Source: Salinirussus salinus (GTDB lineage Archaea; Halobacteriota; Halobacteria; Halobacteriales; Haloarculaceae). From it: a stretch of DNA of 64,000 nt. The notes beneath the pieces were generated by a model that was not told the DNA's origin, did not search any database, and saw only the letters and a list, made by a program, of their open reading frames with translations. The translations under genes were made by a program, and so were the position numbers. Location of the stretch: contig NZ_WOWO01000003.1 of assembly GCF_009831455.1 (NCBI RefSeq), positions 372,001 to 436,000 of the forward strand. The letters run 5' to 3'. Shown piece by piece: positions 32,228 through 52,824 of the stretch (its first letter is position 1; each line of letters opens with the position of its first letter).

Positions 32228-32715
32228 CCGAGAACAGCAAGAAAGCCCCGACCGGTTCGACTCGGGGGGCTCTCACGGCTCCCTGCGGTCACCGTTCGAG
32301 CAGGCCGAGGTCTCCCTTCGGTCGACCTCGCGCTCGCTGCGGTCCTCACTCACTCCGTTCGTTGCGGTCCTTGCGTCACCGGGAGAGCGAAGCTCTCCCG
32401 AGCTCACGGCGGCTGCGCCGCCGTGAACGCCGTGCTTCCCGCAACGCCTCGCCCCTTTCAGTCCCGCCCGATCTGGACGTTCCAATTGGGCGCACGCTGT
32501 CGCGGCTCCGGCCGCGACGACACCGTGCGAGGGATGAGCGACTGAGCCCAGCGAAGGAGCGAATCGGCTGGGGAGGTCTGTGGCGCTGGGCGGGGCTGAA
32601 AGGGGCAAGCCGTTCGGCGACGGCGGCTGACGCAAGCACCGCAGTGAGTGCAACGAATGAGGAGCGCAGCGAAGCCCCCGAGCCGAACGGCTTGGGGCTT
32701 TCATGCTGCTCGACT
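32228..32715. repeat. Long nested inverted-repeat element, copy A
   Basis: This 488-bp non-coding element fills most of the gap between the NAT gene and the zinc-ribbon gene. Outer arms: GAGAACAGCAAGAAAGCCCC (32230) pairs with GGGGCTTTCATGCTGCTCG (32694), and the next bases (CCGGTTCGACTCGGGGGG) pair with CCCCCGAGCCGAACGG. Inner arms: GCCCCTTTCAGTCCCGCCC (32451-32469) pairs with its near-perfect complement at 32588-32606. Small perfect hairpins sit inside at 32381-32399, 32405-32425 and 32499-32518. Copy B (50785) shares the arms but has a much shorter centre. It looks like a MITE or other non-autonomous element. Open frames crossing it show no family likeness. Confidence 0.75.
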
Positions 32716-32739
32716 CTTTTTATCCGATGTATGATCCTA

Positions 32740-49596: not shown

Positions 49597-50709
49597 CTAC
49601 TCGGGCGCCACGGGCGCGACGATGTTCTCGTCGACGCCGTGCTCGCGGGCCAGGTCCGCGAGCTGCTCGCGGATCCGCTCGGGAACGGGGATCCCCTCGC
49701 GCTCGTACTCGGCTTTGACGTCGTGTTCCATCCGGCCGGGGAGGTAGGCCCGGTCGACCCGGGTCCCGGTGCCGGCGCTGATGGCATCGGAGTACTCCGT
49801 CTCGTCGAGATACTCCTCCAAGGCGAGCAGGCGAGCCTCGTGGGCCTCCCGGGTGGTGAACGCAAGCGGGTCGAAGACGGTGAAGGCGGCGGCGTTCTCG
49901 TACCGGGAGTCGGGCTGTGGCGTGACGGGGCTGTCGCTCCAGGTCGCCGCGAACAGCTCCGCGACGAGCATCAGTCCCGTCCCCTTGTAGCCCGCGGTCT
50001 GGCCACCGAGCGGCGCCAGCGCGCCCCGTTCTTCCTCGTTGAACTCGTCGGGGTCGAGCACCGGCTCGCCGGCCTCGTCGACGGTCCACTCGGGGTCGAT
50101 CGAGTCCGACTCGCCGGCCATCTGCCGGACGTTGACCTTCCCGTAGGCCACCTGGCTGGTCGCCATGTCCATCACGACGGGGTGGTCGAGCGCGTCGAAG
50201 CCGGGCAGCCCGAAGGTCAGGGGGTTGGTGCCGAACTTCCGTTCGGCGCTGCCGGCCGGCGCGACCGGGTTGCCCGAGGTCATGTTCGTGAAGCCGACGA
50301 AGCCCAGCCCGGCGGCGGCAGCCTGCTCGGCGAACCAGCCCACGCGGCCGATGTGGGTGGCCTTCCGGAGCCCGACCGTTACCGACGGATGGTCGCCCTC
50401 GCGCACGCGGTCGATGGCGAGGTCGGTCGCCGCGCGGGCGACCGCGTGGCCGAAGGCGTGGTTGCCGTCGACGTGGACTGCTCCCCCGCGGTCGGCGACG
50501 ACCTCGTGGCGCGCTGCGGGCTCCAGATGTCCCTCGAAGGCCCACCCGAAGTAGTCGGGGATGAGCTGGACGCCGTGTGAGGGGTGCCCGCGCAGGTCCG
50601 CCGCGACCAGCGAGGCCGCGACCGTCTCCGCGACCCCCTCGTCGGCACCGGTCTCGGCCAGCACCGCGGCCGCGAACCGCTCGAGTGCGTCACTGTCGAT
50701 CCGTCCCAT
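49597..50709 (-). CDS. Malate/L-lactate/ureidoglycolate dehydrogenase family (Ldh2)
   Basis: A 370-residue NAD(P)-dependent dehydrogenase of the Ldh2/MDH2 fold, unrelated to the Rossmann LDHs. Family markers are ADLRGHPSHGVQLIP with the catalytic His, the ATHIGRVGWFAEQAA segment, SGNPVAPAGS, FGTNPLTFGLPG and a later GYKGTGL lysine. It interconverts a 2-oxoacid and a 2-hydroxyacid. Its position between a D-lactate-type oxidase and a ThDP enzyme points to 2-hydroxyacid metabolism. Its start faces the structured repeat in the shared upstream region. Confidence 0.91.
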   Translation of the reverse strand: MGRIDSDALERFAAAVLAETGADEGVAETVAASLVAADLRGHPSHGVQLIPDYFGWAFEGHLEPAARHEVVADRGGAVHVDGNHAFGHAVARAATDLAIDRVREGDHPSVTVGLRKATHIGRVGWFAEQAAAAGLGFVGFTNMTSGNPVAPAGSAERKFGTNPLTFGLPGFDALDHPVVMDMATSQVAYGKVNVRQMAGESDSIDPEWTVDEAGEPVLDPDEFNEEERGALAPLGGQTAGYKGTGLMLVAELFAATWSDSPVTPQPDSRYENAAAFTVFDPLAFTTREAHEARLLALEEYLDETEYSDAISAGTGTRVDRAYLPGRMEHDVKAEYEREGIPVPERIREQLADLAREHGVDENIVAPVAPE

Positions 50710-50784
50710 ACGCCACCCTCCCGCGGCGCCGTCTTAGTCCTGTCCCCGGTCGTGTTTAGTTAGGGATTCGTGCTGCTACGGGTA

Positions 50785-51108
50785 CCGAGAACAGCAAGAA
50801 AGCCCCCGCTCGCTCGGCTATTCCGACTCGCTGCGCTCCTCGGCTCGCTTCGCTCGCCTGCGGTGCTTGCGTCGTCTCAGACGCCGAGCGAGCGGCCCCT
50901 TTCAGTCCCGCCCAATTTGGCTGTCCAGGCTGGGCGGGACTGAAAGGGGCGGCCTGTTCGACGATGGCGGGCGTTCACGGCGGCGCAGCCGCTGTGAGCT
51001 CGGGAGAGCGAAGCTCTCCCGGTGACGCAAGCACTGCAGCGACCGTAGGGAGCGAAGCGCGCAGCGAGTCCCCCGAGTCGAACAGGCCGGGGCTCTCTTG
51101 CTGTTTTC
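50785..51108. repeat. Long nested inverted-repeat element, copy B
   Basis: A 324-bp element between two divergent genes. Outer arms: GAGAACAGCAAGAAAGCCCC (50787) with GGGGCTCTCTTGCTGTTTTC (51089). Inner arms: GCCCCTTTCAGTCCCGCCCA (50895-50914) and its perfect complement (50931-50950), separated by a 16-nt loop. It shares the arms and the hairpin cassette (50976-50996 and 51002-51020) with copy A, but the cassette lies in the right arm here and in the left arm there, so the two are in opposite orientation. The rest of the 486-bp gap (50710-51195) holds no gene that I can support. Confidence 0.75.
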
Positions 51109-51161
51109 AGTCCCTCTGGCAGTACGATTGCGTGACTAGATACGACCTAGCCCGCCGTCCC

Positions 51162-51171
51162 AACAGTTATG
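51162..51171 (+). promoter_or_regulatory. TATA-like box for the second ThDP gene
   Basis: AACAGTTATG is centred about 29 nt upstream of the ATG at 51196. The in-frame ATG at 51169 lies inside the box, which argues against it. Confidence 0.45.
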
Positions 51172-51195
51172 GAACGGCCCGGCACAGGTGGGCGC

Positions 51196-52824
51196 ATGAA
51201 CGTCGCCCAGGCCGTCGCGCACACCCTCAAGGAGGAGGGCGTGGAGTACCTGTTCACCTACCCGATCAACCCCATCATCGAGGCCGCCGCGGCCGTCGAC
51301 ATCCGCCCCATCCCCGTCCGCCAGGAGCGGGTCGGGCTGCACATGGCCGACGCCTTCTCCCGCACCACCGCAGGCGAGGAGATCGGCGTCTTCTGCATGC
51401 AGTTCGGCCCCGGCGCCGAGAACGCCTTTCCGGGGGTCGCGCAGGCCTACGGCGACTCCGTCCCGCTGGTCGTGCTGCCGATGGGCTACGAGCGCAGCAA
51501 GACCGAGGTCGACCCCAACTTCGACGCCTCCGACAACTACGACCAGGTGACCAAGACCTGCGAGCAGGTCACCGACCCCGACGAGGCGGTCAACGCCGTC
51601 CGGCGCGCGTTCAACAGCGCCCGCAACGGCCGCCCCCGGCCTGCGCTCGTGGAGTTCCCGATGGATGTCTTCGGCGAGGAGGTCGGGGACATCGAGTACA
51701 GCCCGCCGACCGAGAACCGCCCGGCGCCGGACCCCCGGCGGGTCCCCGAGGTGGCCGACGCGCTCCTGGATGCGGAGGACCCGGTCATCTGGGCCGGCCA
51801 GGGTGTCCACTACGCCGAGGCCTGGGACGCACTCCGGGAGGTCGCCGAACTGCTGGAGGCGCCGGTCGCCACCAGCCTCCAGGGGAAAAGCGCCTTCCCC
51901 GAGACCCATCCGCTCTCGCTGGGTGTGGGGGCGCGCTCGATGCCCACGCCCGTCCGGGAGTACCTCGAGGAAGCCGACCTGATATTCGGGGTCGGCTGTT
52001 CGTTTACCCGTACCCTCTACGCCGCCGACATGCCTGAGGATGCGACCATCGTCCACTCGACGCTGGACCCGGCGGACATCGACAAGGGGCTGGCCGCCGA
52101 CCTCGCGCTGGTCGGAGACGCCAAGCTGACCCTCGACGCGCTCCACGGGGAACTCGACGGCCGAATCGACGGCGGCCGGGGCCGTTACGACGACCTCGCC
52201 GAGGATATCGCCGACCGGCAGGAGGCCTTCCTCGAGGAGTGGGAGGACAAGCTCACCTCCGAGGAGGTGCCCCTGACGCCGTACCGCGTCATCCACGACC
52301 TCCAGGAGACCGTCGACGTGAGCGAGACGGTCATCACCCACGACTCGGGCAGCCCCCGCGACCAGCTCGCCCCCTTCTGGCAGCCCGAGGAGCCGCTTTC
52401 CTACATCGGCTGGGGGAAGACCACCCAGCTCGGCTACGGGCTCGGGCTGGCGATGGGCGCGAAGCTCGCCCACCCCGACAAGCTCTGTATCAACGTCTGG
52501 GGCGACGCCGCCATCGGGATGACCGGGATGGATTTCGAGACCGCCGTCCGCGAGGAGATACCGATCCTCTCGATACTGTTCAACAACTTCTCGATGGCCT
52601 GCGAGATCGACCTGCTCCCGACCGCGACCGAGAAGTTCGACACGACCGACATCTCGGGCAACTACGCCGACATGGCCGAGGCCTTCGGCGGCTACGGCGA
52701 GCGCGTCGAGCAACCCGAGAACATCGTGCCCGCCATCGAGCGGGGCATCGAGCGGACCGAACAGGGGACGCCGGCGGTGCTGGAATTCATCACCTGCAAG
52801 GAGACCGAATACCCGGAGATGTAG
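51196..52824 (+). CDS. ThDP-dependent enzyme, acetolactate-synthase/oxalyl-CoA-decarboxylase-like
   Basis: A 542-residue thiamine-diphosphate enzyme. The PYR domain starts NVAQAVAHTLKEEGVEYLF, and its cofactor Glu lies in VRQERVGLHMADAFSR. After a central domain the PP domain has the Mg/ThDP motif GDAAIGMTGMDFETAV ending at NNFSM. It lacks the exact acetolactate-synthase signatures, so a decarboxylase or another 2-oxoacid-processing enzyme is possible. It diverges from the Ldh2-family gene. ATG 51196 rather than 51169 agrees with the promoter. Confidence 0.88.
   Translation: MNVAQAVAHTLKEEGVEYLFTYPINPIIEAAAAVDIRPIPVRQERVGLHMADAFSRTTAGEEIGVFCMQFGPGAENAFPGVAQAYGDSVPLVVLPMGYERSKTEVDPNFDASDNYDQVTKTCEQVTDPDEAVNAVRRAFNSARNGRPRPALVEFPMDVFGEEVGDIEYSPPTENRPAPDPRRVPEVADALLDAEDPVIWAGQGVHYAEAWDALREVAELLEAPVATSLQGKSAFPETHPLSLGVGARSMPTPVREYLEEADLIFGVGCSFTRTLYAADMPEDATIVHSTLDPADIDKGLAADLALVGDAKLTLDALHGELDGRIDGGRGRYDDLAEDIADRQEAFLEEWEDKLTSEEVPLTPYRVIHDLQETVDVSETVITHDSGSPRDQLAPFWQPEEPLSYIGWGKTTQLGYGLGLAMGAKLAHPDKLCINVWGDAAIGMTGMDFETAVREEIPILSILFNNFSMACEIDLLPTATEKFDTTDISGNYADMAEAFGGYGERVEQPENIVPAIERGIERTEQGTPAVLEFITCKETEYPEM

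Follow-up and report, generated by a model that had tools for sequence, protein, structure and literature searches.

Haloarchaeal intergenic repeats as probable IS6-type MITEs carrying a conserved, putative structured RNA unit

Two repeats, copy A and copy B, lie 18.5 kb apart in a 64,000-nt stretch of the Salinirussus salinus genome (the window; contig NZ_WOWO01000003.1, positions 372,001 to 436,000). We propose that each is probably a non-autonomous archaeal 'IS6'-type transposon (MITE) carrying a conserved structured RNA unit, here in two head-to-head copies. The nested inverted repeats were found to be two head-to-head copies of one ~115-nt folding unit, and the outer and inner inverted repeats exist because this unit is duplicated head to head. 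What a preliminary description had presented as terminal plus internal inverted repeats are really where two homologous units have their conserved ends, 3' and 5', and the true termini lie ~40 nt further out. That description had left open a MITE-like transposon or a structured RNA/DNA element family. Both turned out to be right together, the first by the tips, the 8-bp target-site duplications (TSDs) and an empty site, the second by covariation and strand-specific wobble, while the anatomy had to be redrawn.

The individual parts of the two repeats were largely as first described. The outer arm GAGAACAGCAAGAAAGCCCC is present on the + strand at 32230 and 50787, 2 nt from the starts first given, with its near complement in copy B at 51089-51108 on the - strand; none of 100 dinucleotide shuffles produced an outer-arm match, placing these matches far beyond chance. 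The inner arm GCCCCTTTCAGTCCCGCCC has one mismatch in copy A (32451-32469/32588-32606) and is perfect in copy B (50895-50913/50932-50950). A small hairpin cassette (CACCGGGAGAGCGAAGCTCTCCCG...) is indeed common to the two copies, in inverted orientation, and inspection of the ORFs gave no credible protein inside either. The arms had been taken for the element termini, however, and this is wrong, as copy B extends from ~50748 to 51147 with tips GGTCGTGTTTAGTTAGGG/GGTCGTATCTAGTCACGC. The whole element measures 400 bp (50748-51147; tips GGTCGTGTTTAGTTAGGGAT and, as reverse complement, GGTCGTATCTAGTCACGCAA), with IS6-type tips at 50748-50765 (+ strand) and 51130-51147 (- strand). Its left folding unit, D2 (50778-50913, - strand), reads outward as GGGCGGGACTGAAAGGGGC-X..X'-GGGGCTTTC, scores 127.2 bits (cmsearch R1) and is itself a member of alignment A1. 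An 18-nt centre (50914-50931) separates it from the head-to-head right D2 unit (50932-51117, + strand; 82.1 bits, cmsearch R1), which contains an inserted hairpin cassette at 50968-51027 with an inverted counterpart in copy A at 32378-32432. The flanks of copy B, CTGTCCCC/TAGCCCGC, indicate that its target duplication has decayed. Copy B occupies the gap (50709-51199) between an Ldh-like oxidoreductase gene (50709, - strand) and a gene for a thiamine-pyrophosphate enzyme (start at 51169 or 51199, + strand). As these neighbours start divergently on either side of it, their promoters may now be provided by the ends of copy B.

Copy A is recognisable from 32230 to 32711, its outer termini having decayed to leave no clear tips or target duplication. 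It begins with a left D2 unit with inserted hairpins (32230-32469, - strand), of which the covariance model sees only the core at 32332-32379, and ends with a right D2 unit (32588-32722, + strand; 135.6 bits, cmsearch R1, and 2.8e-26 in the whole genome). The centre between them had been called variable and is not merely that, consisting of an 18-nt spacer (GATCTGGACGTTCCAATT, 32470-32487) and a second conserved domain, the 5' domain D1 (32488-32587, + strand; GGGCGCACGCTGTCGCGG..CGTGCGAGGGATGAGCGA..CGGCTGGGGAGGTCTGTGG).

The repeat is abundant. Instead of the two copies first reported there are dozens in the 3.37-Mb genome that contains the window, where CAGCAAGAAAGCCCC (outer motif) and GCCCCTTTCAGTCCCGCCC (inner motif) occur dozens of times. 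A covariance model was built from the MAFFT/RNAalifold alignment of 64 units, and a whole-genome search with it (33 candidates scored) found at least 32 units at E<=0.001; 19 copies have two recognisable outer ends and the remaining copies are partial. Counting copies across haloarchaeal genomes, as had been proposed, returned many: the model matches 84 of 117 genomes of the order, in 37 of the 49 haloarchaeal genera sampled, and had no match in 85 archaeal genomes elsewhere in the phylum, outside the order. An exact search for the paired inner arms returned 117 stretches in genome contigs, all 80 among the matches listed being haloarchaeal. A viral or phage origin was rejected, there being no matches in IMG/VR and INPHARED. 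According to the preliminary description, a lack of other copies in any genome would have reduced the repeat to a local rearrangement or a known element. Although the tips do resemble known IS6 ends, we find a local rearrangement, or decayed ends of a known IS that mean nothing further, scarcely credible: it is refuted by dozens of copies per genome in dozens of genera and by the covariation described below, and the conserved interior is unrelated to IS6 genes.

Alignment of the outer flanks revealed a further conserved tip, ~GGYNGTGTTTAGTTWRGCAG, 31-49 nt outside the outer arms. In the window genome, exact 8-bp direct repeats stand exactly at the tips in 3 of the 19 paired copies (TTCGCCAC, GCGCGGAC and CAGCGGCG). 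This alignment had been suggested as a way to find TSDs, and across genomes 9 of 31 copies with two good tips have an 8-bp duplication, matching at 8/8 positions in six and at 7/8 in three; no matching duplications were found when flanks were permuted between the elements of this set. In most copies no TSD can be recognised, and at both window copies it is eroded. Further support for mobility is provided by an insertion in another genome (G035) with the TSD CACCGGAT, which is absent from the syntenic intergenic site in six congeners, where the site runs through uninterrupted. The elements span about 180-540 bp between the outer arms and hold no transposase gene or credible ORF. Archaeal IS6-type members have 8-bp duplications and GG ends in which position 7 is a G (PMC6807381). 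IS6-type elements of the order, measured in the same way as the repeat elements, also had 8-bp duplications; the ends of the ISH17-like group are GGCACTGTCTAGTT.., and the terminal inverted repeats (TIRs) of a second, ISH14-like group are GGTCGTGTTCAGATAAGC or GGCGGTGTTAAGTTAAG. The tip consensus of our elements, GGTCGTGTTTAGTTAAGC, matches the ISH14-like GGTCGTGTTCAGATAAGC at 16 of 18 positions. The tips, the 8-bp duplications and the empty site in relatives together identify the elements as archaeal IS6-type MITEs, and the transposase mobilising them is probably ISH14-like. A match between the arms and a known IS end had been expected to reduce the repeat to a known element; the tips do match IS6 ends, but rather than refuting the proposal the match names the likely mobiliser.

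Other sources of mobility were considered and rejected. IS1595 is another family with 8-bp duplications, and at the two IS1595 loci whose TIR and TSD could be resolved the ends read CGCTC..., unlike the element tips. A PATE (IS605-related, with neither a terminal inverted repeat nor a target duplication) does not fit elements that have both. An autonomous element with the same long arms was also sought in four other genomes, where all exact GTGTTTMGTTWAGCAG tips found were part of this repeat family and no gene-bearing IS carried one. A BLAST search of plasmids with a 50-nt element end gave no match. The IS6 element seen in the window genome itself is of ISH17 rather than ISH14 type; it looks intact (contig C4, 541566-542246; loci L069 and L087), with a full-length 228-aa transposase frame and the TIR GGCACTGTCTAGTT, and there is a second, weak match.

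To describe the interior, 136 pairs were parsed, in which each half follows the plan GAAAG-CCCC-X-...-X'-G-CCCC-TTTC. X and X', about 12 nt each, are different in almost all copies and yet still complementary, with 2448 of 2604 cells forming Watson-Crick pairs. Most mismatches in X/X' are A.C when read inward (79, against 15 G.T), and this holds for the two halves of an element alike; on the outward strand the A.C mismatches become G.U. Such an excess of outward G.U in both halves is the mark of a fold on the outward G-rich strand, in each half separately, and the same wobble signature argues against DNA palindromes and against one transcript across both halves. Facing R/Y positions of the inner arms are nearly independent (GC 41, AT 35, GT 32, AC 28), and because they combine almost freely the inner arms look like the homology of two inverted copies and not like a selected stem. 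A four-way-junction RNA spanning both halves was rejected on these two observations.

Changes on both sides were seen in 23 of the 32 pairs of the RNAalifold consensus for the 64 units, whose MAFFT alignment used no structure. In 144 distinct aligned copies, 97.7% of cells pair, compared with 30-45% when partners are slid, and double changes occur in 26 of 32 pairs, but this larger alignment was fitted to the model and the unfitted figure of 23 is the safer one. On the outward strand the wobble count is 107 G.U against 19 A.C, and one pair is CG in 86 copies, UG in 43, UA in 11 and CA in none. The closing stem P1 is invariant in the paired copies owing to the way the search was constructed; in copies found with the model it covaries between genera (GAAAG/CUUUC, GGAAG/CUUCC, CAAAG/CUUUG). 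The outward unit reads 5'-GGGYGGG-ACU-(P1: GAAAG)-GGG-(P2 of ~12 bp, then P3)-GGG-(P1': CUUUC)-3', in which P3 has a conserved G.A-type internal loop, and it is optionally preceded by the ~100-nt domain D1. At three loci (L012:2794-2829, L018:2717-2752 and L034:2464-2498) there are deletion derivatives that have intact ends but no P2 stem, only a tiny loop closed by P1.

Conserved covariation is what had been asked of an RNA role. It is present beyond the controls and comes with strand-specific G.U, which shows selection on each unit to fold as a single strand, the outward G-rich one. The inverted pairs of units in many genomes, the shuffling of halves between copies and the hairpin cassettes nested in the arms would also be expected of a plain foldback MITE, in which DNA processes (cruciform extrusion, inter-arm gene conversion, hairpin repair) maintain the long inverted repeats and a folded single strand plays no part. 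We nevertheless consider this quite improbable: complementarity within a unit covaries independently of the other unit, the wobble is strongly strand-specific with the same sign in both halves, partnerless solo units keep the fold, unpaired motifs are conserved, and the inner-arm R/Y position is nearly independent across the pair.

The folded strand is most simply inferred to be RNA. If the strand were single-stranded DNA, its fold would show the same covariation together with G.T wobble, and a G-quadruplex hairpin of DNA acting in replication, recombination or transposition would be consistent with the presence of copies in either orientation to genes. A point against RNA is that the 16-28 nt centre of the paired form leaves no room for a normal promoter. 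However, the best matching mobiliser is a DDE transposase with 8-bp duplications, which needs no single-stranded DNA hairpin, and conserved internal-loop motifs that resemble tandem G.A are typical of RNA, making the DNA reading unlikely in our judgement.

Sequence outside the helices of the putative RNA is also conserved. Four GGG runs, GGG-Y-GGG before P1 and a GGG/GGG pair facing each other between P1 and P2, are formally unpaired in the model, and the full set of 12 G is kept by 141 of 150 aligned copies; among copies whose loci were not chosen by exact pattern, 37 of 45 keep it. These runs could form a three-tetrad G-quadruplex between P1 and P2. The haloarchaeal cytoplasm contains molar K+. 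G4 structures have been visualised in the DNA and RNA of Haloferax volcanii (PMC12873603).

The head-to-head pair around 15-28 nt is found in the window family and several others, while in other families the unit is mostly solo. One solo, in genome G218 (L301), has both tips and the exact TSD GGGAGCGG; solos in several genera have no recognisable IS6 tips and may have spread otherwise. Many solos lie directly after a stop codon in the sense direction and copies are intergenic, as a cis-acting gene-end element (a transcription terminator or 3' UTR stabiliser) would be, but such a function appears very doubtful. In a set of 40 solos, 23 have a sense and 16 an antisense gene upstream, with every orientation class seen and no consistent bias, there is no conserved T-run after the unit, and copy B has a divergent gene start on each side. 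In copy A, as in about half of the window-genome copies and in solos of another genus, the unit is preceded by D1, and at L014 two D1-D2 units stand tail to tail. D1 also occurs without an adjoining D2, as its own head-to-head pair (L284:626-870), and a similar D1 pair is present at L071:2635-2848. An SRP-RNA (Alu-like) origin of D1 was suggested by a look-alike sequence and rejected for want of an Rfam SRP match. TATA-like boxes ahead of D1 in one genus are too near D1 to be convincing promoters. Several copies, among them L009, L025 and L027, contain small hairpin cassettes of changing sequence nested in the arms as if inserted at a preferred spot (for example TCTGCTC-ACGG..CCGT-TCGCACGG). 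In one genus (L252, L274, L291), variable copies of a ~27-nt repeat like CCGGTGACACCAGCCACCGGGAAAC are found upstream of the unit, and in some genomes of one genus (L292-L297) tandem partial repeats of the unit 3' end, each with TTTATAAGCGA, lie downstream of it.

Our proposed mechanism is that an ISH14/15/29-like transposase would act in trans on the GGYNGTGTTYAGWTAAGC tips and leave an 8-bp duplication. The outward G-rich strand of each unit would fold as P1-P2-P3, and its four GGG runs, two in front of P1 and two facing each other in the internal loop, could assemble into a three-tetrad G-quadruplex held between P1 and P2. With the head-to-head layout, transcription from either flank would presumably yield one correctly oriented unit. 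Our best guess is that the element is a mobile RNA gene whose structured RNA is bound by an RNA-binding protein of the host. More tentatively, and as a possibility we do not favour strongly, the elements may represent a class of archaeal mobile RNA genes. Their conserved RNA would contain a natural G-quadruplex of three tetrads, clamped by a helix on either side and suited to the molar K+ of the haloarchaeal cytoplasm. A borrowed IS6-type transposase would have spread these genes to dozens of loci per genome, with selection keeping them at many of these loci, so that they would be to prokaryotes what functional SINEs are elsewhere.

Prokaryotic MITEs are usually regarded as parasitic DNA with an interior that is free to drift. 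The element interior described here covaries across about 37 genera and ranks among the commonest structured elements in haloarchaeal genomes, and the repeat has more the look of a mobile RNA gene than of junk DNA. If transcribed, it would be a large unrecognised archaeal RNA family with a candidate G-quadruplex core, and one would then ask whether selection for the RNA unit comes from the transposon or from the host. The family would also explain part of the palindromic intergenic repeats in haloarchaeal genomes. Over the element, Rfam 15 gave sub-threshold matches only and no family above the gathering threshold, the sole match above it being a nearby tRNA. Searches of the literature by sequence and by theme found no description of the element; their scope did not extend to subscription papers or ISfinder, so it may have been mentioned earlier as a repeat.

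As mobile DNA, the elements are a new MITE family with a structured payload. Spinach and Mango are laboratory-selected RNA aptamers with a G-quadruplex between two helices. The layout proposed for the unit is alike, with G runs in an internal loop between helices, but the unit is natural and mobile and its layout is inferred from sequence. The archaeal IS6-type insertion sequences ISH14, ISH15, ISH17 and ISH29 (PMC6807381) share the tip GGYNGTGTTYAGWTAAGC and the 8-bp duplication with the elements, which in contrast lack a transposase gene and have only the outer ~18 bp in common with them. PATEs and SMRs of Haloquadratum (PMC3119063), and REP/REPIN-like elements, are likewise small palindromic mobile repeats without a transposase; PATEs, however, have no TIRs or target duplications and SMRs cause no duplications (PMC3119063), whereas the elements here have both TIRs and duplications. 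Also close in kind are the haloarchaeal MITEs of the Haloquadratum survey (PMC3119063), which like our elements are short, transposase-free and intergenic, with TIRs related to a known transposon and with target duplications. Those MITEs are defined by their ends only, whereas the elements described here have a covarying structured interior that is common to many genera.
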